Assembly (NCBI RefSeq): GCF_026151205.1
Contig: NC_087073.1
Location: 3,679,001-3,743,000 of the forward strand
Length of the DNA: 64,000 nt
Direction of reading: 5' to 3'
Source of the DNA: Bolinopsis microptera
Lineage: Eukaryota; Ctenophora; Tentaculata; Lobata; Bolinopsidae
In this document: positions 1-60,885 of the stretch, one piece after another
How the letters are laid out: each line of letters begins with the position of its first letter
Numbering within the stretch: the first letter of the stretch is position 1
Made by a program: the position numbers and the translations under genes
The notes under the pieces: model-generated
Seen by the model: the letters and a program-made list of their open reading frames with translations, nothing else
Database searches by the model: none
What the model was told of the DNA's origin: nothing

Positions 1-279
1 GTGTCTAATTGGCGGTAATTGGGAGAAACAATTTGGCTTTATGACGTAATAGCACACATAGAAGGAAAATTATCTGCTCACCTCTTTTTATACTAGCCGG
101 CACCGTCACTAGGACTAAATTAGTGTTGCTAACATTACCTCACTGTACTCTCACACTGCTCCTTATAACGGACATTCCAACAAGAAACTACCAAGCATTG
201 CATTCCTGCGCAGACTTGGAATATTTTATAGTTTTATTATACTTGACATGGGATTCTCTAACCTACATTCCTCCCCCAG

Positions 280-465
280 ATGCCTAAAAAGAAAGGAGCC
301 GGCACGCCACGAACACCAGCAGCCAATAAGAAGAAGCCCCGGGAAAAGTCGGCTGCCCAAAAAGCGAGGGATGAAGAACGTAGGAAGATGTTACTCGCGA
401 AGAAACTTGAGATGAAGAAGAAGATGCAAGAGAATGGGAACGTGCCAGAGGTTATCATTACCTAA
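280..465 (+). CDS. Last coding exon of an upstream DLGAP/GKAP-like gene (copy 1)
   Basis: The exon follows a pyrimidine-rich acceptor ending at 279 and runs 61 codons to a TAA stop. It encodes a very basic peptide that begins MPKKKG, has an EERRKMLLAKKLEMKKK helix-like stretch in the middle and ends PEVIIT. It is nearly identical to the last exon of the second copy (17,804-17,989): I count four base differences in 186, one of them changing Gly to Ser. In the second copy this exon joins in phase to exons encoding a recognisable GKAP domain, so this one is inferred to be the end of a sister gene whose earlier exons lie before the window. In DLGAP proteins this segment corresponds to the Lys/Arg-rich tail. 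The hydrophobic C-terminal PDZ ligand usual in the family (ending TRL) is not visible. The first codon is only an internal Met after a splice site, not a proven start. Confidence 0.75.
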   Translation: MPKKKGAGTPRTPAANKKKPREKSAAQKARDEERRKMLLAKKLEMKKKMQENGNVPEVIIT

Positions 466-559
466 GGAAGTGTGTGGTCGACCTAGCCTGGATCAGGGTA
501 AACGGGCTGGGGTGACAGAGACACAGGTCAGATGTTAGAAGCTGGGTTTAGGATAGCGG

Positions 560-668
560 GATCACGTGATAGTAGATGGGAACACGTGATAGTAGATGGG
601 ATCACGTGATAGTAGATGGGATCACGTGATAGTAGATGGGATCACGTGATAGTAGATGGGATCACGTG
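560..668. repeat. 20-bp minisatellite carrying TCACGTGA palindromes (copy 1)
   Basis: Five full 20-bp units plus a partial one, each beginning GATCACGTGATAG, lie 95 bp after the DLGAP-like stop codon. Each unit holds the palindrome ATCACGTGAT, which includes a CACGTG E-box. One unit has GAACACGTG instead. Confidence 0.95.
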
Positions 669-1338
669 GTCGCTATTAAGAGACGGTCTGGTTGGTGTGA
701 TGACCCGTTAATAGGAATAATAGGATCTGGATATTTGTGTAATTGTTGTTTCCTTGTCCGCTGCTGATTGTGTTCCACGACCTGGACAAGCCAAAAGGCG
801 AAAGGTTCCCGCAAGTTAAACTGCTCCACGAATATGTCTTCCTTAGACAAGCAGATCCTATTACGAGTTTCTGAATGATAATTAATTGAGTTCTAGTCTA
901 AAGTGTTGAATTGAGAGTACCAATACAAGTTGATCGATTTTCTGGTCACATTTTTTTGATTGAAAACTGATAATTTGTAGTGTAATTAGCACTCCGTGCA
1001 ACAATTGTTTGATTTGAAGGTAAGAATTTAAGTTGATGAGTGGTTTAGGCCAGTTAAAGATGAGATTGGATTATGCGTATATCTGTAAATATGCTATTTG
1101 ATTACTAAAATTCTAAACGTTTTTCCTTTTATTTTTTGAAAAAGCGAGTGATTTTGTGGTCATTTATTGTTGTAGTTAAATTTTATAAAAATCAAGAAAA
1201 AATAATTGCTCAGTGTAGTTTTATTGTAGAAGTGTTATTCTTGCACAGTGCGGTAGTTTTCAAAAGGATTGCATTATGGTGAACAATTATTGACAAGCAA
1301 CGCAGCCTAAGGTCATCATTATAGCATAGTCGAGATGA

Positions 1339-1505
1339 GGGATCGTTCACATATTACTTGAGGTCCCCCACGGAATTTCCTCCAGAATCATTGGTTCATT
1401 TTAACCTGACGTGAAATTGGAAGATAACTCCCTGCTCCTGTCAGCAATCATTCATTTCTAGTAACGCTCTCCCCCTAAATATGTCACATAAATGTGAACG
1501 ACCCC
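1339..1505. mobile_element. Short MITE with GGG(G/A)TCGTTCACAT termini (copy 1)
   Basis: The left end reads GGGATCGTTCACATATTAC and the right end is the inverse of GGGGTCGTTCACATTTATG, 167 bp in all. The same terminal inverted repeat bounds the element at 39,221-39,382. No coding capacity. Flanking target-site duplication is not clear here. Confidence 0.65.
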
Positions 1506-2196
1506 TTTACCCTTAAAGTCATGTAGAAATCTGCCTCTTTGACGAATGAATGTTAATATAGATGGTGTAGTTCATCTAATTTTCAAAAACAGAGCTTTTA
1601 ATAAAAATGAGTATTTACTATTTTCCATTTGGGCAATTTTAGAAGTAAATAGATGCATTTACAAAGAGGCATGTTAGTAGAAGGAGAATTTAAAGGTCGT
1701 TACCATGTTCAGGGTTTTTACGTTTAGTAGGGTATGTGATGTTTATTGTATTTTTAAGTGCAATATTATATTTACTGCATAATGTGGGATGACCATATTT
1801 TGAAAACTAAGTTTTTTTGGTTGAAGAGAATATTCAAGTCAATTTTTAAAATGAGTTCTCAATTTGGTTATTTGTACGTTTTGATTGGTTTACCGCTTTC
1901 GTATGAAAAACATCCACGTTTATTACACTAAGTCGATAACTTTTAATTTTGTTTAACTATTTGTTTGCATGTCAATGTGTAAATCTACTACAATAAACTA
2001 TCTTGTCTTTTTTTGTCGTTGAAAGATCGCCTAGAAAATTTGAGAACGAATGACTATGCTATGATTATCACTACATTCGAATGCTTACTTTGTTTGAACA
2101 GACGTTTAAGATTTGTACCTGACAGAGGAAATTACGAACGGTCTACTTTTTTCCAAAATGTAAGATAAAAGTTGAAAGCCGTGAGCATCTAGCGTA

Positions 2197-2262
2197 ACGC
2201 TTATACGCGCGCGCGCGTTCTGTTAGCTAAATCTAACTGATCGCGCGCGGCGCGCAATATTT
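2197..2262. repeat. GC-rich inverted repeat in AT-rich DNA
   Basis: Runs of GCGCGC flank TTAGCTAAATCTAACT, so the stretch can fold on itself. The matching place in copy 2 (19,734-19,790) has a different CG run length. It is a local structure, not a gene. Confidence 0.5.
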
Positions 2263-4742
2263 ACAATTCTGGTACGTACAGTACATTATATTAGTAGATC
2301 AGATTATAGATCATACCAAAGAGCTCCTATACTCAAAAGTAATCACCCAAGTGTTCAATTTTAATTGGCTGGGTGAAGTTGGAAGTGATGACCCGCCGCG
2401 CACGAGTGTGCGGCTCCCCTGTATCGTATAAGTGAAATTAAATGGGGGTCACGACGTGATACAATAATCATTTAGAATACTTTTGAAAGAAATCCACAAG
2501 CTCGAAATAACGCTATTGCATTGTCTTATTTCGCTGTAAATAGCACAACAAAGTGAGTATAAGCTGCTGCGCTTGTCATCATGTTACTCTCTTTCAAAAA
2601 TACATCCCAATTGCAATTTGTATAAGTGCATATTATAGTGCGATGCACTACCAACTACTAAGCTGCGCATCCAATTGTGCAATTAAGTGCTTCTCGCAAC
2701 CGTTAAATCGGCAAAATGCACCAATTGTGGAAATTGGGCCACGCCGAGCTGCGAAGGATTGACATCGTAAATTAAAATACATATATTGATTTGGAATACA
2801 TTGCAAAATTTGATTTCGATTCATGAAGTTGAAAGAAGTTACAGTAATGCGCGCAATTTGGGAAGTGTATATTGTATGTGCTTTCAGTGAAAAATATATA
2901 ACCGGTACCTTTTTAATTGTTAAACCATCGTTAAAATAGTCATAAAATACAAACCATTTAATTGTGCCATTGTGGCAATTCGCCACGCGCACTTCACATT
3001 ATATAATTGTGCATATTGTGCGCGGCAGCGAATTGGAACCTCTTTTCAAGCATATACTTAATACATACACGTTGTATACTTCTTTCACGCATGGCACGAA
3101 GCACATATATGTGAGTAAAGAGAAGCGAGCAATGGACTAACAAGCTAAGTAAGCCAAGCTTAAGTGTCTATGTCCAAATATAATAAACACGTCACATATA
3201 TTTCGAAAGTATTCGTGATCAGCGTCCGAAAATTTATCGATTCAAGGTGGTTTTAACTGATGGGGGCCCTTATAGAACATTCTCGAAGATCGACTGTAGA
3301 GTGAACGATCTAGAAGGGATGACATCGTCAATCAACTGATAGCTAACACAATTACAAAAAATTTGATGATAGTGACGGTCCTTTGTGTCAGCCCTATCTT
3401 GGGAAAATGGAAGAGTCTTTTCGACTGGTCCGGTGATCCAGTATTATGGTCAAATACCCGTGGACGGGAGGGAAAACCGGAACTTAAACCTACCAACCGC
3501 CAATAAAAGAGGAAGAAACCATGCCAGTAAAAACAGACTCATTAGACCACTGGGATCGGCAATAATCTCCAATCTAACTAAGGAACCTAATCGACAAAGA
3601 TACAGTAGTAAAGGAATCTTCTTCTCGCATGAAGGTAAGATTGCTGAGCAAAGCGTGTGCGCATTATAAGTAGCAATTGTGCTTTACTCTAATCCGAGCC
3701 CTCCTGCTGAAATAGCTCAATAGTACAATTCTTTTAAAGCTCCAGCATTCTCTCCAACGACGTAAGCTTGCACTTTATGTAGGATGTAACAATAATGGGC
3801 TCATCTTACGTCATGTAACTACTAATAACAGAGTCATGACCTTGATCCAAAAAATATTTGGGGTGATGATTTCGTTTTTTATGGACGATGGTGTTTTCTG
3901 GTAAACCAGCATTATGGAAGTCACTCTTTGAGGTTACACTGCTAACAAGGCCTTCAATTGTGCTCTGGGGATGAGTTTGTGAACTTGAACCAAGCATAGT
4001 TTGAGTCCTTGTACCGGAAACCCACACTAAACGTTATCTCTAACGGTTGAAGTAGCATCCTACAATGTATAGTACTGCAACCAGGGCATTAAAAGCACAA
4101 CATAGATAAAAAAGCACATGCCAGATCTTAAACCTGCAACCTTCTAATGTCTCCAAGCTAACACATACCTAACAATTATTGTTTCATTGAAACTTAAACT
4201 TATTGTTTCAAACTTACTGTTTCAATGACTTGGCAGGGCAACGTGTCATAGGAAGTTTTGTTGATGATAGTTAGTGTCGTAATTGTCAGGTATTCCAATT
4301 CACTGACATTTTCACAAGAAGCAGTGGCTATAATAATAATAATAATAATTCTATACAGTTACATAATTGAAACAATTATGGCCCCTTATTGTGGGCAGAG
4401 TATGTGTCTTTATTGAATTGTCCTGATATAAACTTATCTGAGTGACTGCATTAAAATAATTTAAGGTGAGTTCTCTTGAAACTTTAAGACAATAGGAATA
4501 AATACTAGGACCTAATAAAATGAAAACAAAGTGCAGCCATCTAATTTGTTGTTGAGCTTTCTCTTCTCCTACGGTTGACTAGAGGAATTATCTTTGGCGA
4601 GTATTAGGAACTTAGACCATTACAAATACCGTGCTGTAAGTTTGCAAGGCATGTGGACTAAGTGGGTCGAGAGTGGGTGTAAAGTATGTGTGGCTGGTGG
4701 GTGCTCCCTTGAAGCTTCTTTTAAACATTCCAATAATTTCAG

Positions 4743-7700
4743 CTGGTGGACGAGTGATGGCGAGTTGCGGCAAAGCTAACTTACTGCTAACTTCCAAGTT
4801 TAAACAGTACAGAGGACTCTGCGCTGAGTTCGAGGTTTGTCAAGTTCTTCGAACAATGTCTTTTTATAACCAGTGTTTAGCTATTAAAACGCATGTTATT
4901 AGATTCGGGTGTTGAATACAATTTCTAACAAGTTTGAGTGTAATAATTTCTGGATTACAGAGGAGAACATAGTTTTGCATTTCTTTAATCGTGCACTAAA
5001 TTGAAGGTGCAATTACGGACGTCAACAGGAGCTAAATTGTTGAGCTCCTGTCAATCATACACACCACAAACCAGGGGAATGGGATTGGTTTATTTTGGGA
5101 AGATGTTTAGGTGCTAACCTTCACTCACATTGACACATATTTCTATAAAATACTGTGTTAGCTTACACTCGGAATGTATAACAATTATAATATGTGGTGT
5201 TACCAGAAATAGTCTAGTCAGGTTTAAAACCCTTTGAAGAAAGCTATGGCACACGTACAACATAGGTGTTGTTTCAGGAAACTGATTTTAAATTGCAGCT
5301 AAGTTGATAAAAACTAACCAATAACCATATATAACTTGATGATAAGCTTTACCAAGTGATAATGTGGCGAAGCTATGAAGATTTTCTCAATATCCTAACT
5401 TTGCTTTGACAAACAACACTAACATTCTTAGTTCTTACGCAGGAGTTTGCATATTTTCTAGCATCTAGAATGTTCTTTGACTGCTTGCATTCTTAGAGTC
5501 AAAAATACTTGTAGTCACCTGCAGTACCTGACCGTATTTTGGCCCGAAGCCCGAATGAAATAATGAAGTTTGTGACAGTCTTATCAGAGTATTCCCATGA
5601 AGCACGTACACAGTATTAGAGAGAATATCTTATCGCAAAGTACTTCATGTGACTGTAACTGGTACCAGTTGTGATATATTAGTGACGGAGACCCCACTGT
5701 TTATCACTACCTTAACCCAGCTGCTATAACTCAATAACTAAGAGTTTGCTCCCTAACAATAGTGTCATTATATAACATCTCAGGGTTGTTACCATGGTTC
5801 CAGTTACACCGCAATCTCCACAGTAACCACAGTAACCACAGACCATACTGAATAATAAGTAATAACCTGACCCCCTCAGCTGTTTATCAGTATCTGGTCA
5901 CCTTTTATTATATCAACTTTAAACATTCCTAATAATAGTCGAGATCTGAGGTCTGAGGTCTGAGGAGTGTATATTACATCAAGTTGACACATTCTTGATG
6001 ATCTCGCTGAATTACTGAAAATAAATACCTTAACACGAGTCAGCAGATCTGTAAAAGATCTTTGATTTCTATTTTTATCACCATGAGACCTAGGATCAGT
6101 AATTTCTCTCTTTACAATTACTGATCTCCTCGTCATTCACTACCTAGACTCCAGACTTAGGAGAGTAACTACTTAGGAATAACTTAAGAAATAACTTAGG
6201 AATAAAGAAGAAGTGGTTGGTTGCACCTACTTGCCGGGCACGCAATCTTTAATACCCGTTTATACCCAGTCACTCCGTCACCTAGTGCCACTAGTTCCAC
6301 TAGTTCAGCCATATGTTCGGTCAGGTTTTTATAACATGTCACCGTTAAATCTCCCATGGGCTTTGGAAATTACGATTTAATAACGCTTAACTTAATGCTA
6401 TATTTACTTTACATACCTAAACTAGAGCGGTTTCGTGGGCAATAGCCTGAGAGAGTCTCAGTGCGTGGTGTATGTGACCACAGTGACCGTAGAGTTGTCA
6501 AGCAAAGAAATAAAATATAATGTTCGTATATATTATGCTACATAATGTACAATTATTATATTATGAGAATATTAAAGTCATTGTCGGAGGAAAGTAGTCT
6601 CAATATTCAGCTCGCTAAATCTACTTTGTACACTCTACAATAACTCTTACACTCACAAGAAGCACTGTTTTCGTGGTAAAATTAATCACCTCATCGTTAT
6701 ATCTGTATTACGTGTCCTATTAATATATTATGTATGCTAGTATTCATTCCATTTGGGTAACAAATTCCGCCAAATTACCGTACTTTAGTTCAGTACCTCG
6801 TGACTCCACCAAGTTAGTAAACAAGCCTTTCCCGGAGCCGGGAATAACAAGGATACAGTGCAAACTAGACTGAACATCAAGTAAAACTATCAACAACTTG
6901 ACTGTGACAAGTCTGCTATATGAAGTTGTGATGAACCCCTCTAAGATACTTACTACAGGTTATGAAGGACACATATGATACATTGAGCTGTACCGTGTAG
7001 TAACTGCACGGTGCGGTGTGTACTGTATGTACACGGTGTGTATACTGTATGTATACTGTATGTACACGGTGTGTATACTGTATGTACTTACATGATATTA
7101 ACTTAGTTCCTGTTCTCCCACACACACACACGTGCGCGTGTACTCAATGTCCTCACTGTAGCTTTAATTACCATTTACTTATCCCGGCCAATGAATGGCT
7201 ACCTTTTATTGTTAGGTATAATGAGATTAAAATCCTAAACGTTACCAGATTTTACTAGACTAGACGTGATCTCTCAGTAAAGAAAACTCCAGAACATCCT
7301 AGTTCTTTTAAAAAGGCGTGTCCACGGTGAACGATCTATTAATAGTATTCTTCAGTTATTGTTAACACGTGGTCGTTTGATCGTTTACACCAAAAATCAC
7401 GCGGTTCTTTTTTCTCGGAAACTGTTAACAATATGGTCGCCCAGAATAATCGCACTAACCAAATATTATTAAAATGGGGGGGGTGTCACGTCCGTCTATG
7501 TCCGCTTGTCTCATAGAATCCAAAAAGGACAGGACATAGGCGGACATAGGCGGACATAGGCGGACATAGACGGACATAGGCGGACATAGACGGACATAAA
7601 CGGACATAAACGGACATAAACGGACATAAATGGACACCTAAATTGCTAAATAAAATGTTCAATTTTTGCTGTTATATGGAGAGATCATGTTTTTTGTCCG

Positions 7701-10700
7701 GTACCCTATATTTTCAAAACGGACAAAAAATAGAGCGGACAAAAACGGACAAAAATGGAAATAAAATTTAGATGCTTCCTCCTCCTACTCTTCCTCCTCC
7801 TCCTCCTGGGTCTTCCTGATCTTCCTCAGTCCTCTTCCTCCTCCCCTCCTCAGTCCTCCTCCTACTCCTCCTCCTCGTCCTCAGTCCTCCTCATCAGTCC
7901 TCAACAGTCCTCCTCCTCCCCAATCCTCCTCCTCCTGAGTCCTCCTTCTGGGTCCTCCTCCTGGGTCCTCCTCCTCCTCTTCATCCTCCTCCTCAGTCCT
8001 CCTCATCAGTCCTCAACAGTCCTCCTCCTCCCCAGTCCTCCTCCCCCCTCCTCCTCCTCCTATTCAGTCCTCCTCCTCCTCAGTCCTCCTCCTTCTCAGT
8101 CTTCCTCAGTCCTTCTCAGTCCTCCTCCTCCTCCTCCTCTTCCCTCTCAGTCATCCTCCTCAGCCATCCTCCTCAGTCCTCCTCAGTCCTCCTCCTCAGT
8201 CCTCCTCCTCCTGGGTCCTCCTCCTCCTCTTCATCCTCCTCCTCTTCCTCCTCGGTCCTCAGTCCTCCTCCTCAGTCCTCCTTCTCATCAGTCCTCCTCC
8301 TCCTCAGTCCTCTCCCAGTCCCCCTCCTTCTCCTCCTCCTATTCATTCCTCCTCCTCCTCCTCCTCCTCAGTCCTCCTTCTCATTTCTCCTAAGTCCTCC
8401 TCCTAAGTCCTCCTCCTCCTCTTCCTCCTGAGTCCTCCTCCTCCTCCCTCTCAGTCATCCTCCTCAGTCATCCTCCTCAGCCATCCTCCTCAGCCATCTT
8501 CCTCAGCCATCCTCCTCAGTACTCCTCAGTCCTCCTCCTTCTCAGTCATCGTCAGTCCTCCTCTTCAGTCCTCCTCAGTTCTCCTCCTCCTCCTGGGTCC
8601 TCCTCCTCCTCCCCCTCCTGGGTCCTCCTCCTGGGTCTTCCTGATCCTCCCCAGTCCTCTTCCTCCTCCCCTCCTCAGTCCTCCTCCTACTCCTCCTCCT
8701 CGTCCTCAGTTCTCCTCATCAGTCCTCAACAGTCCTCCTCCTCCCCAGTCCTCCTCCTCCTCCTGGGGCCTTTTCCTAGGTCCTCCTCCTGGGTCCTCCT
8801 CCTCCTGGGTCCTCCTCCTCCTGGGTCCTCCTCCTCCTGGGTCCTCCTTCTCCTCCTCAGTCCTTCTCCTCCTCCTCTTCCTCCTCCTCCTCCCTCTCAG
8901 TCATCCTCCTCAGCCATCCTCCTCAGCCATCCTCCTCAGTCCTCCTCCTTCTCAGTCCTCCTGAGTCCTCCTCCTCCTGAGTCATCCTCCTCAGTTCTCC
9001 TCCTACTCCTCCTCCTCGTCCTCAGTTCTCCTCATCAGTCCTCAACAGTCCTCCTCCTCCCCAGTCCTCCTCCTCCTCCTGGGGCCTTTTCCTGGGTCCT
9101 CCTCCTGGGTCCTCCTCCTCCTGGGTCCTCCTTCTCCTCCTCAGTCCTTCTCCTCCTCCTCTTCCTCCTCCTCCTCCCTCTCAGTCATCCTACTCAGCCA
9201 TCCTCCTCAGCCATCCTCCTCAGTCCTCCTCCTTCTCAGTCCTCCTCAGTCCTCCTCCTGAGTCCTCCTCCTCCTGAGTCATCCTCCTCAGTTCTCCTCC
9301 TCCTCCTCCTAGGTCCTCCTTCTGGGTCCTCCTCCTCCTCCTCCTGGGTCTTCCTGATCCTCCTCCTCCCTCTCAGTCATCCTCCTCAGTCATCCTCCTC
9401 AGTCATCCTCCTCAGCCATCCTCCTCAGCCATCCTCCTCAGCCATCCTCCTCAGTACTCTTCAGTACTCTTCAGTCTTCCTCCTTCTCAGTCCTCCTCCT
9501 GAGTCCTCCTCCTCCTGAGTCATCCTCCTGAGTCCTCCTCCTGGGTCTTCCTGACCCTCCCCAGTCCTCTTCCTCCTCCCCTCCTCAGTCCTCCTCCTAC
9601 TCCTCCTTCTCGTCCTCAGTCCTCCTCATCAGTCCTCATCAGTCCTCCTCCTCCCCAGTCCTCCTCCTCCTCCTCCTGGGGCCTTTTCCTGGGTCCCTAT
9701 ATAATTTGATATAATAAGTTAAAGCTATTAATAGCTTTAGTGTGATTAATAAGTCGTTTGTTTTGTACAAAATTATAATACATAGAAGTTGCGAAAAATT
9801 CTCAAAATGTTTGTCCGCTAATGTCCACCAATGTCCGCTAATGTCCACCAATGTCCGTCCGAGTCCGCCAATGTCCGTCCGGGTCCGCAAATGTCCGTCC
9901 GAGTCCGCCAATGTCCGTCCGAGTCCGCCAATGTCCGTCCGTGTCCGCCAATGTCCGTCCGAGTCCGCCAATGTCCGTCTGTGTCCGCCAATGTCCCAAA
10001 AAACACGTCCGTTGTCTCATAGAATCCAAAAAGGACAGGACATAGGCGGACATAGACGGACGTGACACCCCCCCCCCCTAAAATACTTAGAACAGCTCAG
10101 GTATGTATTATGTATTTTTTGTAACATTTCCTATAAGTTGAAATATACTCATTATAATTATATCATATGCTCATCAGATCATCGGCAAAAACGAAAATAT
10201 TTGTCGTAAAAACAGTGACATAGCGAGTGTAATATTACCATGTTTAAAATTGGCCCACTTCCATACTAATGCAAAATACATACAGGAGCCCCTGTACAGT
10301 GTACGTATAACTTTTTTGCATTAGTATGGAAGTAAGCCAATTTTAAACCTAGGGGGTTCTAGAGCACAACAGATCATAGTTGTAGTCTCCAAATGTGGCT
10401 ACATCTCCTTTATCTGACCGATAGTCATTGTCTGACTGTAAACAGTGGTCTTTGTTAATGTAGCGTGTAAACTCTACCATGTGATATACACAGGATACAT
10501 TGTAAACATGTCATATGACTTCAACTGTATGCGGGAACGCTCAATACATGATAATATAAGTAGTTTTATTATTAATGTAAATGTTCGTTTGCAGTGAGTG
10601 ATTCCGGATAAGTTACCCTTTATTAATGTTGCTAAGCAATGTCATTTAAATTTGTCAGGTACACCCACCAATACTCTACTGCTAGGTTTAGGATAGCACA

Positions 10701-13700: not shown

Positions 13701-16700
13701 CTGAGAAGATTGCTAGGTCAGGTGATTTCTGTCCAAGTCACGTACATCTAAAATTTAGTTTCATACTTCATAGCATATTTACGCTTCATAGGTAGCTCAG
13801 TAATCATAGTTCACAGCATATTTAGACTTCACGGGAGGGGTGGTAAACATTTCCAAGCCATCTGTCATTAACGCTCTCCCTTGAAAGTGCTTTTTTGGCA
13901 CTGGAAAGATGCCACCTAAAATCGAGTGACACTGAATTTAATGTGAGTTTTAAAAGTTTAATTTATCCTAATTATTGCGCGCAACAGAGTGACAAGTGTA
14001 ACACGTCTCTATTCCACAGAGTACCAGTAGGAAGATGACAGCTGATGATATGCAGGGTTTCTGGGAGCTCATCCTTCTACAGGTATTTTTATTGTGGATT
14101 TTTATTTTACATTATAGATTTGAGAATTATTTCCGGTCGATAACATTGTTTAAAATGGTTTGATCAAGTTTGCAATCTTAAGAGGTCGATAATTTGATCG
14201 TATTCCATAGTCTTGGTTTCTAGGTAAGCGATCATCGATCATCCGAACAGTTTCCTATCCTCAACCTCGCCCATTGCATGTTTAGTGTTTACTGGTGTCC
14301 GTAATCCGTTCAGAGAGCATTAATTCGGGCAATACGATCCGCTAAATTTCCGTGCCTTCCATTTGGACAGCTACAGCACGAATCCCCATCTCCATAATTT
14401 CAACAGTTACAATCTAGGTCCTCCTAGGACCGGATATCGGTTTTATATTTCACCATTCAATACATATAATACGTTATATATATATACGTTATATATGTTA
14501 TATGTTATCCCCACCAATCTGGTGGTTTCACTTAAAACCCTACAAAACAAAAGGCCGGTGTGAAGAATAGTGCTGGGTGATAGCCAGGGAGCCGACACGT
14601 CGAACACCTTGTCAAGGTGTGATAGACTGCCCATATTATCCTTACCAGACATTAATATCCGTCTGTTAGCCGCGATAAAATAGTATTCTCCTTGTGCCAC
14701 TAACCAGCCCTGGCTATAATAGCTGGCCGGTTATAAAACCAGCCTGGCACGCCCGTTATATGTGGGCGTAATTGTATCGGAATAGTAAAATATGCCACTA
14801 ATTTGACTGATTGTGCGTTAAGACGGTGTCGGATGTTTACTTGGATTACCTTATCTTATCTCTGTGGTGGTAATCCGTCGTATCCAAGTTGGTAGTTTAG
14901 TCGGATATTTGGGAGGTTTCTAAGATAGAATCCGTACTTGCAGTATCCTTATCTCTATGACGTCATCCACACTTGATAATATCCCAGCATAATAGTACTC
15001 TACCGACTAATATCATCTTATTAATAGTATTCAAATTTACTGGATAAATTATGTCTGGTAGAAGAATTACGGAATTATTTGGATATTATCCTTACTGTTG
15101 GCGTGCAAGGCGGCTCGATTCATTCGTTACAGTCTGCGACAGATGTTCTAAAAATCATATATTTCTCCCCCTCTCCCTGTCTCCGATTATGCCATATATG
15201 GAAATATGTTGGAACAGTTCACTCTCTACAGTCAACCAGCCCTGTGTACAGTTGGTGGCTAAGCTCCAGTCTAACTCCGCTCACGCTGACTAATATCATT
15301 TATCTGAGCTACAAGTATAAATAGCCCTATCTCTCTCTCGACAAGGTTATGATAATGTAATAAGCCCGTTCACCTGACGACTGGCCAGGGGACAGGGTGA
15401 TGACCGGGCCGGGGGCCTTGTCATTTCTGTAGAATATAAGAAATGTTATCACAAAGACATGATCTGGTGTAAAATTTAATTAAGATCCAGTGTACTAATA
15501 AACGTTAGACCTCACTTGCGAGAGCTCTGTTTAACCCACACCGCGGCCGGGGTTGGATTACGACATCAAATTTGATTACAGCTCATCATTACGAGCCGGA
15601 TGAGCGCATAATGGTGACATGATGTAACCCTAAACGGGTGAATCTGCCCCCTCCTAATGGATTTGAATCGCGGTAAATTTAGCAGCACGCAGAGTCGTAC
15701 AAACGTTAGTAGTTACCGTGTGTGCGATATTTAGTAGCCGGAGTGTGAGCTCGGAGTGTGTCAAGATATTCAATATTTGACGATGGAGTGAAATTTTTTA
15801 GTGAATTGTTCTGTTGAAGGGAACTGTCTGGAATTTCACAAAGTTTCAGATAATTGGCAGCTGTCCTTGTAAGTCTAGTCGTAGACAACATTTTCTCTGT
15901 ATTAATGTTGTCATTCTACCCAGGTTGAAGACGTCAACAAGATGTTTACTGCGCTGAGAAGTCTCAAGGAAAACAACTGGGTCATCCCCAAATCACCGGT
16001 TAGTTGATAATATCACTCAATTTAAGAATTTTCATATCGTCTTAAATTACTAAGAGACGGATACTAAGTATTTATGAGATATAATCATCAGTCATCAGCG
16101 TTTATATGAAAACCAGCTAGTGGTCAGTTTATACGGGGCGACTGTAAACCCTGCTGATCACTGTTACACATCATAGCCTCACTGTTACACATCATACCCT
16201 CACTGTTACACATCATAGCCTCACTGTTACACATCATAGCCTCACTGTTACACATCATAGTCTCACTGTTACACATCATAGTCTCACTGTTACACATCAT
16301 AGCCTCACTGTTACACATCATAGCCTCACTGTTACACATCATAGTCTCATAATTATATTGGATATATTAATCTTTATATCATGCTAAACGTTACGTTTAA
16401 CATGATATGAAGTTAAGTCGTGATCAGCAAGTTTATGCCATATATGGCAATAGAATCTGTTTATTGTCCCCGGCGCGTTTTGTTTGTGCAAGCTTCTGTG
16501 CAAACTTCACTGCACGCCTCTTTTACAAGGAAATTACGTAACTATAATGGGGTGTTGCCAAATTCTTTCCAATCATTGTGCAGAGTTTGCACTCACCGCA
16601 TACTTAAACGACAATTTCACCGGTTCTAACATGGTAGAATGATGGTAAACACTACGTCAGACCACCGTTTAGAATGACATATCCAGGATATCCTGATACT

Positions 16701-17989
16701 CAGGATATTGTGGAATGTTTTGGTTGCTCAGTAGACTGAGAGGTGCAGAATGTTAAAAATATCCACTAATCACGTTTACACATGAGTAAGCATTGTGTAA
16801 GTAATAAGATTATATCCAGTTCATTTGTAGCTGGTCACATTATTTGAGTGGTTTGTGGACATAAAACGATGAGAACTCTGAGAAAATACTTTTATTTTCA
16901 CTCTATCTATGGCGTGTCATTCTCTTTCATTTTCACTTTACCCGAATTATTTATCTTGAAATAGATCAATCATACCTAAACGGAGCACGATATGACAATA
17001 TAACCGTTACTGGAAGGCATTAAATGTTGCTGTGATAAAACTGATCCAGATAAACTGTTGATCCTTTGATCGTCAAGTATTTTAGAGCAGTTTACGATAA
17101 AGACATAAACGAGGAAAACAATTATTCCTCGTGATCCGATTTTTCCCGCCTCAAACTAAGTTAAATATAGATCTGTGATCTGTAATTGCGTGAGATACAC
17201 AGCATGGTGTATCTTGATACACTGGCTAGACAATAAAATTTGGTTTTCATTGTAATGATGAAATTCCTAACATTTTCGATATCATTTCGCGGCCTGATAG
17301 CGTAATTTAGGACCACTAACATGTAACTACATGGTCCGCATACCTTGTAAATACCTAAGTCACTGTCTGATTTAATCAGCATTGTCCTTGACAATTCTTT
17401 CTGGAAATTTGTAGGTTTCTAGAAATTTGTTAAGAGTGCAACTAATTTTAGCTAATTCCAACTGAACCGCGGCTTGAACCTTCAGATTTGGTGCAATTAA
17501 ACCACAATTTACAAACCTAACTCCGTGTCTAATTGGCGGTAATTGGGAGAAACAATTTGGCTTTATGACGTAATAGCACACATAGAAGGAAAATTGTCTG
17601 CTCTCCTCTTTTTATACTAGCCGGCACCGTCACTAGGACTAAATTAGTGTTGCTAACATTACCTCACTGTACTCTCACACTGCTCCTTATAACGGACATT
17701 CCAACAAGAAACTACCAAGCATTGCATTCCTGCGAAGACTTGGAATATTTTATAGTTTTATTATATTTGACATGGGATTCTCTAACCTACATTCCTCCCC
17801 CAGATGCCTAAAAAGAAAGGAGCCAGCACACCACGAACACCAGCAGCCAATAAGAAGAAGCCCCGGGAAAAGTCAGCTGCCCAAAAAGCGAGGGATGAAG
17901 AACGTAGGAAGATGTTACTCGCGAAGAAACTTGAGATGAAGAAGAAGATGCAAGAGAATGGGAACGTGCCTGAGGTTATCATTACCTAA
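4743..17989 (+). CDS. DLGAP/GKAP-like postsynaptic scaffold, C-terminal part (copy 2)
   Basis: Four exons join in phase: 4,743-4,834 (two bases completing a split codon, then 30 codons), 14,020-14,082, 15,924-15,998 and 17,804-17,989. All have GT/AG borders and all three internal junctions are phase 0. The product reads through GKANLLLTSKFKQYRGLC, then MTADDMQGFWELILLQ, then VEDVNKMFTALRSLKENNW, then the basic tail ending PEVIIT. This order and spacing match the GKAP domain of disks-large-associated proteins (KFxQFRGLC, DLxGFWDM, EDVxxKFxELxxLKxNNW, basic tail). DLGAPs link PSD-95 type guanylate kinases to SHANK at synapses and also act at the mitotic spindle (DLGAP5/HURP). The upstream exon needed to complete the first codon was not found. 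Only about 400 bp separate exon 4,743 from the duplication junction, so this copy may lack its N-terminal exons. The first intron (9.2 kb) contains a fold-back element and a long TCC tract. Confidence 0.82.
7016..7085. repeat. Short GTATACTGTATGTACACGGT repeat
   Basis: Four or so imperfect copies of TGTATACTGTATGTA and TGTACACGGTGTG are interleaved. Open frames across it on both strands are repeat artefacts. Confidence 0.75.
7476..10078. mobile_element. Fold-back-type transposable element, 2.6 kb
   Basis: The ends are inverted repeats of about 30 bp that begin with a G run followed by GTGTCACGTCCGTCTATGTC. They are flanked by the direct repeat TAAAAT (7,470-7,475 and 10,079-10,084), which fits a 6-bp target duplication. 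The left arm (about 7,530-7,635) is a tandem array of CGGACATAGG-like units. The right arm (about 9,815-10,000) is an array of the inverse type (TGTCCGCCAA, TGTCCGTCCGAG). A 33-bp block containing GAATCCAAAAAGGACAGG occurs in the same orientation near both ends (about 7,507 and 10,013). The interior is the TCC tract. No transposase is visible, so the element is non-autonomous. Its superfamily is unknown. Confidence 0.75.
7770..9690. repeat. 1.9-kb TCC-rich polypyrimidine tract with higher-order repeats
   Basis: Almost the whole plus strand is C and T in TCC triplets, broken regularly by CAGT, GGGT or GCCAT. Larger blocks recur: one containing CAACAGTCC followed by CCCAGTCC appears near 7,890, 8,020, 8,725 and 9,045, and a block with GGGGCCTTTTCC near 8,765, 9,085 and 9,680. 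The Leu/Ser/Pro frame across it is an artefact of composition. Confidence 0.95.
10242..10348. repeat. 107-bp hairpin (MITE-like)
   Basis: The first 35 bases, starting GTTTAAAATTGG, pair with the last 35 with two mismatches, around a 37-bp loop. No clear target duplication was found. Confidence 0.8.
12751..12795. repeat. 10-bp tandem repeat AGGATTCCAG
   Basis: About four and a half copies; the last is changed to AGGATACCAG. It lies within the large DLGAP-like intron. Confidence 0.9.
16158..16346. repeat. 21-bp minisatellite TCACTGTTACACATCATAGCC
   Basis: Nine units of 21 bp lie in the intron between DLGAP-like exons 15,924-15,998 and 17,804-17,989. Units differ at the last three bases (GCC, ACC, GTC). 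The open minus-strand frame (MMCNSEA repeats) is a result of the unit being divisible by three. Confidence 0.95.
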
Positions 17990-18083
17990 GGAAGTGTGTG
18001 GTCGACCTAGCCTGGATCAGGGTAAACGGGCTGGGGTGACAGAGACACAGGTCAGATGTTAGAAGCTGGGTTTAGGATAGCGA

Positions 18084-18213
18084 GATCACGTGATAGTAGA
18101 TGGGATCACGTGATAGTAGATGGGATCACGTGATAGTAGATGGGATCACGTGATAGTAGATGGGATCACGTGATAGTAGATGGGATCACGTGATAGTAGA
18201 TGGGATCACGTGG
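18084..18213. repeat. 20-bp minisatellite carrying TCACGTGA palindromes (copy 2)
   Basis: This is the same array as at 560-668 in the duplicate copy, with six full units plus a partial one. It has gained or lost one unit since the duplication. Confidence 0.95.
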
Positions 18214-18880
18214 TCGCTATTAAGAGACGGTCTGGTTGGTGTGATGACCCGTTAATAGGAATAATAGGATCTGGATATTTGTGTAATTGTTGTTTCCTTG
18301 TCCGCTGATGATTGTGTTCCACGACCTGGACAAGCCAAAAGGTGAAAGGTTCCCGCAAGTTAAACTGCTCCACGAATATGTCTTCCTTAGACAAGCAGAT
18401 CCTATTACGAGTTTCTGAATGATAATTAATTGAGTTCTAGTCTAAAGTGTTGAATTGAGAGTACCAATACAAGTTGATCGATTTTCTGGTCACATTTTTT
18501 TGATTGAAAACTGATAATTTGTAGTGTAATTAGCACTCCGTGCAACAATTGTTTGATTTGAAGGTAAGAATTTAAGTTGATGAGTGGTTTAGGCCAGTTA
18601 AAGATGAGATTGGATTATGCGTATATCTGTAAATATGCTATTTGATTACTAAAATTCTAAACGTTTTTCCTTTTATTTTGAAAAAGCGAGTGATTTTGTG
18701 GTCATTTATTGTTGTAGTTAAATTTTATAAAAATCAAGAAAAAATAATTGCTCAGTGTAGTTTTATTGTAGAAGTGTTATTCTTGCACAGTGCGGTAGTT
18801 TTCAAAAGGATTGCATTATGGTGAACAATTATTGACAAGCAACGCAGCCTAAGGTCATCATTATAGCATAGTTGAGATGA

Positions 18881-19047
18881 GGGATCGTTCACATATTACT
18901 TGAGGTCCCCTACGGAATTTCCTCCAGAATCATTGGTTCATTTTAACCTGACGTGAAATTGGAAGATAACTCCCTGCTCCTGTCAGCAATCATTCATTTC
19001 TAGTAACGCTCTCCCCCTAAATATGTCACATAAATGTGAACGACCCC
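18881..19047. mobile_element. Short MITE with GGG(G/A)TCGTTCACAT termini (copy 2)
   Basis: This is the duplicate of the 1,339-1,505 element, carried along by the segmental duplication and not an independent insertion, because the flanks match as well. Confidence 0.65.
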
Positions 19048-20115
19048 TTTACCCTTAAAGTCATGTAGAAATCTGCCTCATTGTTAATGTAGATGGTGTA
19101 GTTCAGCTCATTTTCAAAAACAGAGCTTTTAATAAAAATGAGTATTTACTATTTTCCATTTGGGCAATTTTAGAAGTAAATAGATACATTTACAAAGAGG
19201 CATGTTATTAGAAGGAGAATTTAAAGGTCGTTACCATGTTCAGGGTTTTTACGTTTAGTAGGGTATGTGATGTTTATTGTATTTTTAAGTGCAATATTAT
19301 ATTTACTGCATAATGTGGGATGACCATATTTTGAAAACTAAGTTTTTTTTGTTGAAGAGAATATTCAAGTCAATTTTTAAAATGAGTTCTCAATTTGGTT
19401 ATTTGTACGTTTTGATTGGTTTACCGCTTTCGTATGAAAAACATCCACGTTTATTACACTAAGTCGATAACTTTTAATTTTGTTTAACTATTTGTTTGCA
19501 TGTCAATGTGTAAATCTACTACAATAAACTATCTTGTCTTTTTTTGTTGTTGAAAGATCGCCTAGAAAATTTGAGAACGAATGACTATGCTATGATTATC
19601 ACTACATTCGAATGCTTACTTTGTTTGAACAGACGTTTAAGATTTGTACCTGATAGAGGAAATTACGAACGGTCTACTTTTTTCCAAAATGTAAGATAAA
19701 AGTTGAAAGCCGTGAGCATCTAGCGTAACGCTTATACGCGCGCCGCGCGCTGTTAGCTAAGTCTAACTGATCGCGCGCGGCGCGCAATATTTACTATTCT
19801 GGTACGTAGAGTATTATATTAGTAAATATATAAGATCAGATTATAGCTAGGTCATATCAAAGAGCTCCTACTCAAAAGTACTCACCCAAGTGTTCAATTT
19901 TATTTGGCTGGGTGAATTGATAACATAATTGCTTTTATCTCACAATCGCGGAGATCAAATCTTCTGCATGTATTTACTATTTAGTTACCTGAGGACCCCA
20001 GGCTATTATGTTCATTAACATAAATAATAAAGATTTGGCGGAATGACAGGCTCAGCGCGGCCCAGTAACTATTTAGAATCAATATATGCACCAATATAAA
20101 TCATTCGTCTTACCA

Positions 20116-20863
20116 CATACGTTGTATGACCCGCCGCGCACAAGTGTGCGCGGCTCCCCTGTATCGTATATACGAAAATGGGGGTCACGACGTGATACAA
20201 ACAATACCTTTGAAAGAAATTTGGAATTCCTTTGAAAGAAATTTGAAATACCTTTGAAAGAAATCCACAAGCTCGAAATAACGTTGGAGGACTTCGCCGC
20301 GCAAACAAGCATTCTTGCTTCGCATCGACGTCGTCGATCGTTGCTCTGCTTCGCAAAGCAACGATCTCGATAGATTGACATCGTCAATCAAGAAATAACA
20401 CAATTGCAATTGCATTTAATTGACGATGTCAATTCATCGCAGCTCGGCGAGGCACAGTAGCGCATTTCGCCGATCTAGAAGTTGCTCCATCCAGAGCCCT
20501 TGCGCTTGCAGTAGCGCGCGCCCGCCTCACTTGTGAAACAAGCGCGCCCGCAGTGGCGCGAAAGCACATGGTTAGGACGTGAAATCTAGAAGTAACGGAT
20601 CGCGCGCGTTGTAGCGCGATGCATTACTGGGTCGCGCGCGCGCATCCAATAATGCTTCTCGCAACCACAGATTGGCGAGATGCGAAGGATTGACATCGTG
20701 AATCAACGCATCGCGCTACAACAATTGCATTGTCTTATTTCTCTGTAAAAAGTTGATACATGTTACGTATCACAAATATCATTGTATCACGTGGTGACTC
20801 CCACGGTCGCTTCACTACAGGGGGAGCCGCGCACTTCGTGCGCGGCGGGTCATACAACGTATG
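20116..20863. mobile_element. 748-bp element with GC-rich terminal inverted repeats
   Basis: The first and last 26 bp are identical inverted repeats, beginning CATACGTTGTATGACCC. The similarity continues through a GTGCGCGG hairpin and a CACGTGATACAA-like end, about 85 bp in all. The interior holds internal repeats and copies of TTGACATCGTCAA but no convincing reading frame. Copy 1 retains only a left end at about 2,390-2,465 and a scrambled remnant. No target duplication was identified. Confidence 0.6.
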
Positions 20864-21606
20864 ACAAAAATATCAGAGATGGTGCATGCAACGTATGTTA
20901 AGTAAAAAGCACAACAACTGCTGCGCTTATCATCATGTTACTCTCTTTCAAAAATACATCCAAATTGTGCAATTTGTATAAGTGCATATTATAGCGCGAT
21001 GCACTACCAATTACTTAGCCGCGCATACAATAGTGCAAGTGCTTCTCGCAACCGTTAAATCGGCAAAATGCACCAATTGTGGAAATTGGGCCACGCCGAG
21101 CTGCGAAGGATTGACATCGTCAATTAAAAATACATATATTGATTCGGAATACATTGCAAAATTTGATTTCGATTCATGATGAAGTTTGAAAGCAGTTACA
21201 GCAATGCGCGCAATTTGGGAAGTGTATGTTGTATGTACTTTCAGTGGAAAATATATAACGTGTACCTTTTTAATTGTTAAACCATGGTTAAAATAGTTAT
21301 AAAATACAAACCATTTAATTGTGCCATTGTGGCAATTTTCCACGCGTACTTCACATTATATAATTGTGTATATTGTGCGCGGCAGCGAATTGGAACCTCT
21401 TTTCAAGCATATGCTTAATACATACACGTACGTTGTATACTTCTTTCACGCACGAAGCACATATATGTGAGTAGAGAGAAGCGAGCAATAGACTAACAAG
21501 CTAAGTAAGCCAAGCTTAAGTGTTCATTCATGTCCAAATATAATAAACACGTCACATATATTTCAAAAATATTCGTGATCAGCGTCCGAAAATTTATCGA
21601 TTCAAT

Positions 21607-21797
21607 AATAATAATAATTACAACATTTATAAACCGCCTTATAGCTAAATCATATAACTCGATATAATTTAATCCTGGAGATAAACTCCAGTGCTTTCTA
21701 AAGCGGCTCTTACATTAACTGAGCTTAGTTTAATTGAAAATTAGACATGACAAGTTCATTTTACCTATGTAAATGCAAAATCAATCAAATGCTAGAG
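21607..21797. mobile_element. Insertion absent from copy 1, with (TAA)n end
   Basis: Copy 1 reads straight from ATCGATTCAA to GGTGG at 3,238-3,248, whereas copy 2 has about 190 bp between them. It begins with a TAA run followed by TTACAACATTTATAAACCGCC, a layout like the tails of short retroposons in marine invertebrates. It may be a minus-strand SINE-like insert. Exact ends are uncertain by a few bases. Confidence 0.55.
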
Positions 21798-22309
21798 GTG
21801 GTTTCAACTGATGGGGGCCCTTTTAGAACATTCTCGAAGATCGACTGTAGAATGAACGATCTGGAAGGGATGACATCGTCAATCAACTGATAGCTAACAC
21901 AATTACAAGAAATTGATTATATATGATGATAGTGACGGTCCTTTGTGTCAGCCCTTTCTTGGGAAAATGGAAGAGTCTTTTAGACTGGTCCGGTGATCCA
22001 GTATTATGGTCAAATACCCGTGGACGGGAGGGAAAACCGGAACTTAAACCTACCAACTGCCAATAAAAGAGGAAGAAACCATGCCAGTAAAAACAGACTC
22101 ATTAGACCACTGGGATCGGCAATAATCTCCAATCTAACTAAGGTACCTAATCGACAAAGATACAGTTAAGGAATCTTCTTCTCGCATGAAGGTAAGATTG
22201 CTGAGCAAAGCGTGTGCGCATTATAAGTAGCAATTGTGCTTTACTCTAACCCAAGCCCTCGTGCTGCAATATATAGCTCATATAGCTATATAGCTCAATA
22301 GTACAATTC

Positions 22310-23369
22310 TCAATGCCTAGCAGCACCAGACAGCAGCCGTGTACCTTTTTCGACTCCGTGGAGTTCCTGATGGACTTTTGTTTACTTTTGTTAATAATCG
22401 GATCAACCTTTCTTTCTCGAAACATGTATCCTATTGTATTTCATTATTGTATTAAAATGTAAAGATATACTAGATATTACAACGAAATAGCGGTATACCA
22501 AATTGGCCCTTGATATTAACTATAACCGTGTTGATGGTTTTAAATTTTGTATGTTGTAAGTATTATATTTTAGTTTGTGAAGCGTTTACTCCTCCCCCTC
22601 AGCAAGACAGTTAGATTGTAGATTGATGATAATAATTGTCAAATGACGTTATATATTATATAACAGTTATAAATGTTCAATAGTTGTAGAGCGATTTCAA
22701 AAGTAGTGGTCCACAGGGGCCCGAAAAAGCCGTACAGGCACTTGGGTCCTTATCCTTGTCACTAATCTCAATTGGATTCGGTTTACACAAAACATGAACA
22801 TTTAGACGTACACATTGACACGATATTTATTAGAAAGCAAAAAGTATAAAATAATACGTGCGTGCGCGGCTTGAGCCGCGCCGCATAAGAACGGATGCGT
22901 GCAGGGGCTGGAGTACGCTTGTATGTAGATTAATGAAATGTTGTTCACATAGCCATGTGCCTACGCGTACTGCGTGACGCGCGCTACTGCAAGCGAGAGG
23001 GCTCTGGTTAGAGCAAGAAATGTTGCATTGTAAATATTGAGAATTGACGATATATTATGATCTAATAGTAAATTTTACAAAGCTGGCTTTGGATTTAGGT
23101 AAGATTATAATTCATTCAAAAAAACCACGGATAGTTTAAATTTATTTCTATTTGTCGTATAATCATAAACAATTTAATCCTGTTTTCAAGAATGCGCGGC
23201 TTTGGCGGCCAGTTATTGACTTATACATTAAATTGGATTTTAAATAGAAATGTGAATATATTAAAATTTAAAACTTTCAAAACGGAGGCTTATAAATATT
23301 ATTATATTATGATTGTAAAATAAAGGATAAAATTTTAAATTTGTTTCACTAAAAAATTTGTTTCACTTT
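22310..23369. other. 1.06-kb block present only in copy 2
   Basis: Copy 1 goes directly from GTACAATTC to TTTTAAAGCTCC near 3,732, while copy 2 has this block between them. It is AT-rich, contains a CGTGCGCGGCTTGAGCCGCG hairpin near 22,860 and ends with two copies of AATTTGTTTCACT. No gene or clear transposon termini were found. It may be an insertion in copy 2 or a deletion in copy 1. Confidence 0.6.
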
Positions 23370-23888
23370 TAAAGCTCCAGCCTTCTCTCCAACGACGTAA
23401 GCTTGCACTTTATGTAGGATGGAACAATAATTGGCTCATCTTACATCATGTCACTACTAATAACAGAGTCATGACCTTCATCCAAGAAATATTTGGGATG
23501 ATGATTTCGTTTTTTATGGACGATGGTGTTTTCTGGTAAACCGGCATTATGGAAGTCACTCTTTGAGGTTACACTGCTAACAAGGCCTTCAATTGTGCTC
23601 TGGGGATGAGTTTGTGAACTTGAACCAGAGCATAGTTCGAGTCCTTGTACCGTAAACCCACATTAAACGTTATCTCTAACGGTTGAAGTAGCATTCTACA
23701 ATGTATAGTACTGCAACCAGGGCATTAAAAGCACAACATAGATAAAAAAGCACATGCCAGATCTTAAACCTGCAACCTTCTAATGTCTCCAAGCTAACAC
23801 TTATTGTTTCATTGAAACTTAAACTTATTGTTTCAAACTAACTGTTTCAATGACTTGGCAGGGCAACGTGTCATAGGAAGTTTTGTTG

Positions 23889-24205
23889 CAGTGGCGTAAC
23901 TTAGGGCCCCGCAGACCCCGCTGTGCGGGGGGGCGCCGTATAAGGGGGGCGCAATTTTCCTGAATTTTAGGCCCTTTCACTGAAAAAACGCCTTGTTTGT
24001 GTATTTCCCTGTCCAATTTAGCGTTCGGCCGACGCGAAAAAAATATTTGGGGTACCCTTTTTTGCTTCAGGGGGGCGCAAAAACCTTAGGGGGGGGCGAT
24101 AAAAAAAGTACCCCGACCTTTTTTTTTTTTTAGGGACACAAAAAATTTTAGGGGGGCGCTTTTTGTCACTGAGCGGGGGCGCCAACAAGCAAAGTTACGC
24201 CACTG
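23889..24205. mobile_element. hAT-type MITE, 317 bp, with empty site preserved in copy 1
   Basis: Termini are inverted repeats of 14 bp, CAGTGGCGTAACTT. They are flanked by the 8-bp direct repeat TTTTGTTG (23,881-23,888 and 24,206-24,213). Copy 1 has a single TTTTGTTG at 4,256-4,263 and no element. CAGTGGCG ends and 8-bp target duplications are typical of hAT elements. The interior is rich in G runs (GGGGGGCGC) and has no reading frame. Confidence 0.92.
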
Positions 24206-24221
24206 TTTTGTTGATGATAGT

Positions 24222-24990
24222 TAGTCATCAGTAGTCAATGACTAGACAGGGTTATTGAAAATTACAAAGAGTAAAGTGGCAACTGGACTTGGGACCAGCT
24301 CATAGTACATTTCATTAATGCCCTCTGAAAAGCCCTCTGCTAGCTAAAAAATGATATTGTTAGGTAAAACGTACTGAAAATTAAAATTAAGATTAAAAAT
24401 TGAAAACGAACTGAACTAACAAAAAGAATGACACGTCATGCTAAAATACATATTCCGAAGTAATATGTTAAAATACTTGTCGACAAAGATTTCAAACCGT
24501 TTGCGCAAGGCAGCAATATTGAAACTTTGTCGTGCAAGTTTACGAACTAAATTTTTACAATGCAAAATAAAACTGTTAAAAGAACTATTAATACGAGCTA
24601 AACGAACTAACTGACTATTAAATATACCATAAGACTGGCCTTTGGGAATATTCCCATCTAAAAAGGGATAATTAATGACATCAAAATTATAATCGTTCCT
24701 CTTGTCATAAAGTTTAACAACAAATTTTCCTCTATAAATACTGATAGTAAGATCTAAAAAGTGTGTCGTAATTGTCAGGTATTCCAATTCACTGACATTT
24801 TCACAAGAAGCAGTGGCTAAGAACTTACATCCTATATGTCTGGGTGTATCTACTGTATCTCTGGTGACTAATGGTGTCTTATGATAATACTCTGTATAAT
24901 GTTGCGCAATAGGTTCTGTTTACATTAACTTTGTGCACATTTTCTTCCCAGTGACATAAAGTGAGGAATCTAAGAATCTAATTCCTAGCC
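24222..24990 (-). mobile_element. Decayed Penelope-like reverse transcriptase, 3' part
   Basis: The minus strand is open from about 24,787 to 24,416 and encodes FLDLTISIYRGKF, then LYDKRNDYNFDVINYPFLDG, NIPKGQSYG and SQLVRLARI. This is the pattern of the C-terminal part of reverse transcriptases of Penelope-like elements, as I recall it. Upstream of codon 1 the frame is broken by stops and shifts. A 3' flank of about 190 bp (24,226-24,415) recurs in the opposite orientation at about 49,670-49,858, which confirms that it is a dispersed repeat. The family label is the less certain part. Confidence 0.75.
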
Positions 24991-60805: not shown

Positions 60806-60885
60806 GGTAACATTAAATATAATTACTTCCACTTTTAGCTAATCTAGATTAGCTAAAAGTGGAAGTAATTATATTTAATGTTACC
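60806..60885. repeat. Perfect 80-bp palindrome
   Basis: Forty bases from GGTAACATTAAATATAATTA to the centre at 60,845/60,846 (AATCTAGATT) are followed by their exact inverse, with no loop and no mismatch. Confidence 0.97.

Follow-up and report, generated by a model that had tools for sequence, protein, structure and literature searches.

Two described tandem duplications carry a retrotransposon at their internal junction in a way that resembles the locus reported here. The roo element of Drosophila is a long terminal repeat (LTR) retrotransposon. In Drosophila Bar, a single roo element lies between the two copies of a 203.5-kb duplication, which is explained by unequal crossing over, the elements involved lying at two sites on different chromatids (PMC13322080). 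In human tumours, a short L1 was described at the internal junction of a 22.6-Mb direct tandem duplication, and the cDNA of the element is proposed to join a break in the sister chromatid (PMC7058536). Here we describe a locus of the comb jelly Bolinopsis microptera at which two copies (A and B) of a stretch bearing the 3′ exons of a DLGAP-type gene stand head to tail in the genome assembly, with one fragment of a long interspersed element (LINE) between them. The window, meaning the whole 64,000-bp stretch that was analysed, corresponds to C2:3,679,001-3,743,000; negative positions lie upstream of it, and position 0 is C2:3,679,000.

Results

Two copies in head-to-tail order

The genome comprises 264.65 Mb in 232 contigs, of which C1-C13 are of chromosome size (15.2-26.2 Mb); six other contigs that were looked at measure 10-198 kb. 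Self-BLAST was run twice, on the window alone and on the window together with 80 kb of upstream and 20 kb of downstream DNA (164 kb). The GC content of the window is 38.7%, and the 164 kb comprising window and flanks contain no undetermined bases (0 N). The two copies and the features of their edges are the following.

-10,553 to 4,330 (start at C2:3,668,447; 1 to 4,330 within the window), plus strand: copy A, 14,884 bp, from self-BLAST
4,331 to 4,674, minus strand: 5′-truncated fragment of a LINE (non-LTR retrotransposon), 344 bp, with (TAA)6 at 4,331-4,348 as its 3′ tail
4,675 to 4,676, no strand: dinucleotide GG, without counterpart in the LINE relatives or in the left-edge sequence of copy A
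4,677 to 24,819, plus strand: copy B, 20,143 bp, from self-BLAST
24,813 to 24,824, no strand: empty LINE site at the right edge of copy B (GTGGCTA/AGAAC, the slash marking the site), counterpart of the filled site at 4,330

Order and orientation are alike in A and B, bearing out the head-to-tail arrangement proposed in a preliminary description of the window. Self-BLAST matched 1-2,381 to 17,525-19,919 (96.7% identity), 2,564-3,245 to 20,918-21,605 (92.5%), 3,245-3,714 to 21,796-22,271 (95.0%) and 3,731-4,263 to 23,366-23,888 (95.1%), and the run on the window alone also paired 4,274-4,330 with 24,763-24,819 (100%). Because the four long matches are collinear and have E = 0 each, chance is ruled out. 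The same description had predicted that a sister of 4.3-17.5 kb would lie just upstream of the window, together with homologous DLGAP exons. After the upstream DNA was fetched, both were present: 4,677-17,524 match -10,553 to 0 (C2:3,668,447-3,679,000) in pieces that are 95.5-98.8% identical, and this stretch holds exons a, b and c of the gene that we call A (see below). The unit length of about 17-20 kb suggested earlier had to be corrected to 14.9 kb for A and 20.1 kb for B, a gap that consists mostly of sequence present in B and missing in A, with 7,476-10,078 as the largest piece.

A truncated LINE at the junction

We refer to the right end of the unit (4,330) as site P1 and to its left edge (4,677) as site P2. 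An internal junction had been placed at a (TAA)n run near 4,330; the position held, while the run turned out to be the tail of a LINE fragment beyond which copy B begins at 4,677. A plain (TAA)n microsatellite as the junction was rejected for that reason. Among the best 40 candidates scored, 4,331-4,676 had at least 39 other places at 90-99% identity plus one short piece, distributed over at least 12 of the 13 chromosome-size contigs and the small contig C100. We read ten copies of the family with 1.5-kb flanks, namely the junction copy and nine relatives (L038-L046). All ten start at the TAA run, and their opposite ends fall at differing points, the lengths being 344 bp at the junction, 340 bp (L046), 432 bp (L042), ∼1.1 kb (L041 and L043), 1.4 kb (L038), ∼1.55 kb (L039) and beyond 1.8 kb (L040, L044 and L045). 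The (TAA)6 tail at the junction has the length of those in L038 and L039.

On the minus strand, L040 and L045 contain an open reading frame (ORF) of 453 amino acids in which the motifs PQGS...YADD, read by eye, represent a reverse transcriptase signature. A C-terminal piece of 366 residues gave no meaningful Pfam match. The sequence beyond L040 in the 5′ direction had only a 140-residue ORF, and we thus found no full-length element. Target duplications of 12-14 bp and 6 bp flank L043 and L038, respectively, and that of L042 (11 bp) lies ∼25 bp beyond the end of family similarity; none was found at the ends of L041 and L046. Among the five relatives judged (L038, L041, L042, L043 and L046), two thus have target duplications of 11-14 bp; the 5′ ends of L040, L044 and L045 were not reached. 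Taken together, the reverse transcriptase motifs, the variable 5′ ends, the TAA tail and the target duplications lead us to conclude that, by its sequence features, the junction element belongs to a LINE family and that the TAA run is its 3′ tail.

At the junction LINE itself we found no target duplication at the two ends (GTGGCTA on the left; GG and then GTGTAAAG on the right), and the longest word common to its flanks is a 6-mer 15 bp inside copy B, which is at chance level. Compared with the nine relatives, the fragment has four private substitutions in ∼312 bp and no private insertion or deletion (indel). It is the single element between the copies. At the outer edges of A and B no element is present, the P1 site being empty at the right edge of B (GTGGCTA/AGAAC) and the P2 site at the left edge of A (CAAC/GTGTAAAG). 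We considered and rejected homology between 4,331-4,676 and either flank (left or right) or 23,889-24,762 of copy B, since all six local alignment scores were within those of 100 shuffles each, one of the six tying the shuffle maximum.

Divergence of the copies and a haplotig for comparison

Over all alignable sequence A and B differ at 252 of 14,068 sites (1.79%), or at 244 of 14,058 with the last block trimmed. The first 12.3 kb account for 185 differences in 12,340 sites (1.50%) without excess scatter (13 windows of 1 kb, chi-square P = 0.23), whereas the last 1.7 kb, which include at least one dispersed repeat (3,211-3,304, >30 matches elsewhere), differ at 59 of 1,718 sites (3.43%; Fisher P = 1.8e-7). 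The copies had been called near-identical, which is apt for the first 2.4 kb and not for the 20-24.8 kb region, where divergence is 3.4% versus 1.5% and B is ∼3 kb longer than A.

As a yardstick for leftover haplotigs, four small contigs (C50, C100, C150 and C200) were sampled with 2,000-bp queries. C100 matched C9 across the whole query at 95%, and over 5 kb, 69 of the 4,510 ungapped sites in the main alignment were mismatched (1.53%) and gaps were opened 25 times; this value leaves out a second piece, 261 columns long, which had one mismatch. This pair looks like a leftover haplotig. With the same query length, C150 had no second copy in the genome, and C50 and C200 matched dispersed repeats only. 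Since the divergence between A and B (1.50%) is about that of the C100-C9 pair, the copies look like two alleles when judged against this one haplotig pair. In another ctenophore, Hormiphora, single-nucleotide heterozygosity is reported as 2%, with higher values in exons than in introns, a difference put down by the authors to read mapping (PMC8527503). No 10-kb duplication turned up in a 40-kb sample of C7, whose direct repeats of >200 bp were satellite or short-period arrays and one 357-bp pair; from so small a sample no rate of false duplications follows. On the same contig, 10,010,001-10,040,000 hold dense satellite arrays with 71-bp and 43-bp periods.

A whole and a 5′-truncated DLGAP-type gene

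The exons of the two genes are placed as follows.

-13,186 to -12,427 (C2:3,665,814-3,666,573), plus strand: gene A exon 1, outside the duplicated unit
-10,487 to -10,396, plus strand: gene A exon a
-3,755 to -3,693, plus strand: gene A exon b
-1,444 to -1,370, plus strand: gene A exon c
280 to 465, plus strand: gene A last exon, d, 186 bp with stop
4,743 to 4,834, plus strand: gene B exon a, the first exon present, with an in-frame ATG at 4,757
14,020 to 14,082, plus strand: gene B exon b
15,924 to 15,998, plus strand: gene B exon c, its sequence identical to that of exon c in gene A
17,804 to 17,989, plus strand: gene B last exon, d, with stop

The phase of exon 1 fits exon a of gene A exactly, and the modelled joined reading of 391 codons scores 74.7 bits against the GKAP domain (PF03359; gathering cut-off, 27 bits) over profile positions 49-317 of 344. 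Read from the ATG at 4,757, gene B has 133 codons and scores 64.8 bits over positions 198-317 of 344; its domain is less complete than that of gene A, and exon 1 with the first 253 codons is missing. Among PDB sequences, gene A matched DLGAP1 (E = 8.6e-11; residues 245-325 with 4r0y) and DLGAP5 (E = 1.1e-8; residues 253-359 with 8x9p). The likeness to the DLGAP/GKAP family lies in the domain matches above the cut-off in both genes, and gene A differs from the family in having 391 residues as modelled and in its end. QTRL is the C-terminal PDZ ligand of DLGAP1-4; this C-terminus is not present in gene A, whose predicted end is VIIT, and PEVIIT is the predicted C-terminus in both copies. Human DLGAP1 seems longer between the regions that correspond to exon 1 and exon a. 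Eight candidates for an extra exon between these two were considered and none was convincing, and two regular expressions for missing DLGAP exons yielded one useless match. No AATAAA or ATTAAA was found within 635 bp (A) or 671 bp (B) after the stop. Gkap appears in a list of synaptic components quoted in an argument on ctenophores (PMC4685580), and the presence of GKAP in this phylum is probably not new; a literature text search found no paper treating DLGAP together with ctenophores.

As modelled, gene A reads as whole, the duplication adding a 5′-truncated copy and leaving the resident gene uncut. The earlier view that the duplication cuts a DLGAP-like gene accordingly applies to the extra copy only. 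Its companion claim, that the second gene starts about 400 bp before its first recognisable exon and may be 5′-truncated, agrees with the position of gene B exon a, 412 bp past the end of copy A and behind the antisense LINE fragment.

Exon d differs between A and B at exactly four positions, three silent and one Gly/Ser, as had been counted before. Exons a-d together contain nine coding differences (eight silent, one replacement), amounting to 8 of 87 silent sites (9.2%) and to 0.3% of replacement sites (P = 2.7e-5 if both lineages were neutral). The silent-site value of 9.2% compares with 1.5-1.8% for the copies as a whole. All four exons of gene B are open and retain their splice sites (four AG acceptors, three GT donors). 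With no stop or frameshift in these exons and the splice sites intact, we rejected decay of gene B into a pseudogene. A firm claim of selection on gene B was rejected too, because silent sites exceed intron divergence several-fold. By our own arithmetic, a single neutral lineage evolving at intron rates would be expected to gain only ∼2.5 replacement changes, and this expectation, together with the silent excess over introns, means that the silent bias is no proof of a functional gene B.

Gene B lacks the first exon and any promoter before exon 1; silence or low read-through transcription would be its likeliest state. In Hormiphora, a trans-spliced leader was found on 56% of Iso-Seq reads, which the authors give as a lower bound, and the leader motif has 491 occurrences in the M. 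leidyi genome (PMC8527503). A search of the Bolinopsis genome for the leader of Hormiphora, as a 26-base pattern with up to 3 mismatches allowed, returned three matches, all at the limit of 3 mismatches; the reversed control pattern returned none, and the search identified no leader gene. It would be surprising, on the analyses made, if gene B were alive through a leader trans-spliced to the 3′ splice site before exon a. Such a transcript would encode a 133-residue DLGAP protein with the C-terminal part of the GKAP domain, and if it existed, trans-splicing would be a general rescue route for 5′-truncated duplicates.

Other insertions and neighbouring sequence

The largest sequence found in one copy only is the following.

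7,476 to 10,078, no strand: insertion of 2.6 kb confined to copy B, with terminal inverted repeats (a G-run plus TGTCACGTCCGTCTATGTCCGC) and a 6-bp target duplication, TAAAAT

Its interior consists of ∼2 kb of pyrimidine-rich sequence (82% C+T over 7,750-9,700) and a minisatellite, and the whole looks like a satellite-carrying DNA transposon. Copy A alone has a ∼400-bp insertion at about -1,970 to -1,574 with the inverted words CCGTTCAC and GTGAACGG. Upstream of gene A, its neighbour at -19,241 to -16,848 is represented by plus-strand open frames that resemble a TatD-type DNase gene. Still further upstream, -39,000 to -35,484 form a tandem array with copy offsets of 366, 559 and 923 bp and 92-99% identity. 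At the other end of the region, 60,806-60,885 of the window are a perfect 80-bp palindrome.

Discussion

Origin of the arrangement

One explanation for the arrangement, a duplication on one chromosome that already carried the LINE at P1, was rejected: the LINE stands between the copies and not at the right edge of B, where the site is empty, which rules out a simple duplication of a LINE-bearing chromosome. The reading that we favour, tentatively and with somewhat less than even confidence, is a real, Bar-like head-to-tail duplication produced by unequal exchange between homologues through the LINE. One homologue would have carried the LINE just after the right end of the unit (P1, 4,330), and the exchange would have joined this LINE to the left edge of the unit (P2, 4,677) on the other homologue. 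This could have happened by homologous exchange with a LINE of the same family at P2 on that other homologue, as in Drosophila Bar, or by joining of the 5′ end of the LINE to a break at P2. The product would be X - copy A - LINE - copy B - Y, in which gene A (exon 1 plus exons a-d) stays intact and gene B is left with exons a-d only. If the two ends of the LINE belong to different sites, no target duplication is expected at the junction, and exchange between homologues via LINEs at two sites would explain at once why the copies are laid out as they are, why no target duplication is present and why divergence is at the allele level. Several results weigh against this proposal. We saw no single-unit chromosome with a LINE at P2. 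L041 and L046 have no target duplication either, which weakens the argument from its absence at the junction. With four private changes in ∼312 bp, the LINE insertion is not very recent. Divergence is heterogeneous across all 15 windows (P = 8.7e-7), reaching 3.43% in the last 1.7 kb. Finally, divergence at the allele level, measured here against a single haplotig, is equally expected from a false join of haplotypes.

This last point bears on whether the tandem is real, which we consider probable from the assembled sequence. An assembly artefact is doubtful in our judgement, yet a serious contender. A and B would then be two haplotypes of one locus that scaffolding placed head to tail, the contig of one haplotype ending at the LINE at P1 and that of the other starting at P2. 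The published Bolinopsis assembly was made with wtdbg, HiRise, TGS-GapCloser and Purge Haplotigs, and its k-mer size estimate is ∼254 Mb (PMC10232365), against an assembled size of 265 Mb for Bolinopsis microptera (PMC11797021). From this pipeline and k-mer size leftover haplotypes are to be expected, and one of the four small contigs sampled (C100) appears to be one. The divergence of A and B also equals that of this one apparent leftover haplotig (1.50% and 1.53%), and the silent-rich coding differences would suit alleles. Divergence of this size, however, fits a real exchange between homologues as well as a false haplotype join, because such an exchange unites two alleles in one chromosome. 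Against an artefact, the join contains no Ns and is sharp: the LINE tail at P1 is whole, and among the ten copies compared the junction LINE shows no private indel. Filling from raw reads would be expected to show indels, so that the junction appears unlike raw gap filling. Reads running from the right end of the unit into its left end should exist only with a real tandem, and gap filling of a false one should therefore fail.

A real duplication might also have arisen between sister chromatids, with the LINE insertion acting as the bridge: reverse transcription would have begun at P1 and the end of the cDNA would have been joined to a break at P2 on the sister chromatid, a mechanism published for L1 in human tumours (PMC7058536). 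A single insertion would then account for the LINE having its tail at P1, being truncated at the 5′ end and lacking a target duplication, and also for the two outer sites being empty; all divergence between A and B would have arisen after the duplication. Consistent with this idea, divergence is uniform over the first 12.3 kb, and the four private changes of the LINE are, within counting error, what an age of half of 1.5% would give. We nevertheless regard this route as unlikely; the age of the duplication would have to match allelic divergence by coincidence, unless homologues were involved. The 8-to-1 silent bias shared by A and B also speaks against it, although this counts for little given the ∼2.5 replacements expected from a neutral gene B. 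Very unlikely, in our view, is an older duplication that formed by some other route, with the LINE inserted later at or near the junction and a small deletion removing the original breakpoint. The two extra bases, GG, would fit a patched end, and LINE insertions that lack a target duplication and come with deletions are known; the LINE would, however, have had to land on the junction independently.

Significance and comparison with known systems

If the duplication is real, the locus presents, at base resolution, a LINE at the seam of a tandem duplication through which a comb jelly acquired a truncated gene copy. High heterozygosity and common trans-splicing are described for at least one ctenophore, Hormiphora (PMC8527503), and expression of such copies could therefore be unusually easy. 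If it is an artefact, the locus cautions, by a concrete example, that what appears to be a recent tandem duplication in such an assembly can be a pair of haplotypes.

The event belongs to a known kind, a transposable element at the junction of a tandem duplication. Like Drosophila Bar, the arrangement is head to tail, has one retrotransposon exactly between the copies and none at their outer edges, and includes one truncated gene. Unlike Bar, in which a complete roo element separates copies of 203.5 kb, the Bolinopsis locus has a 344-bp LINE fragment between copies of 15-20 kb, and no second-site element was seen. With the L1-bridged duplication in tumours it shares an element whose tail is at one site and whose 5′ end is joined elsewhere, again without a target duplication. 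That duplication is somatic and spans 22.6 Mb, whereas the one described here stands in an animal genome assembly and spans 15-20 kb, and the divergence between its copies points to homologues rather than to sisters.

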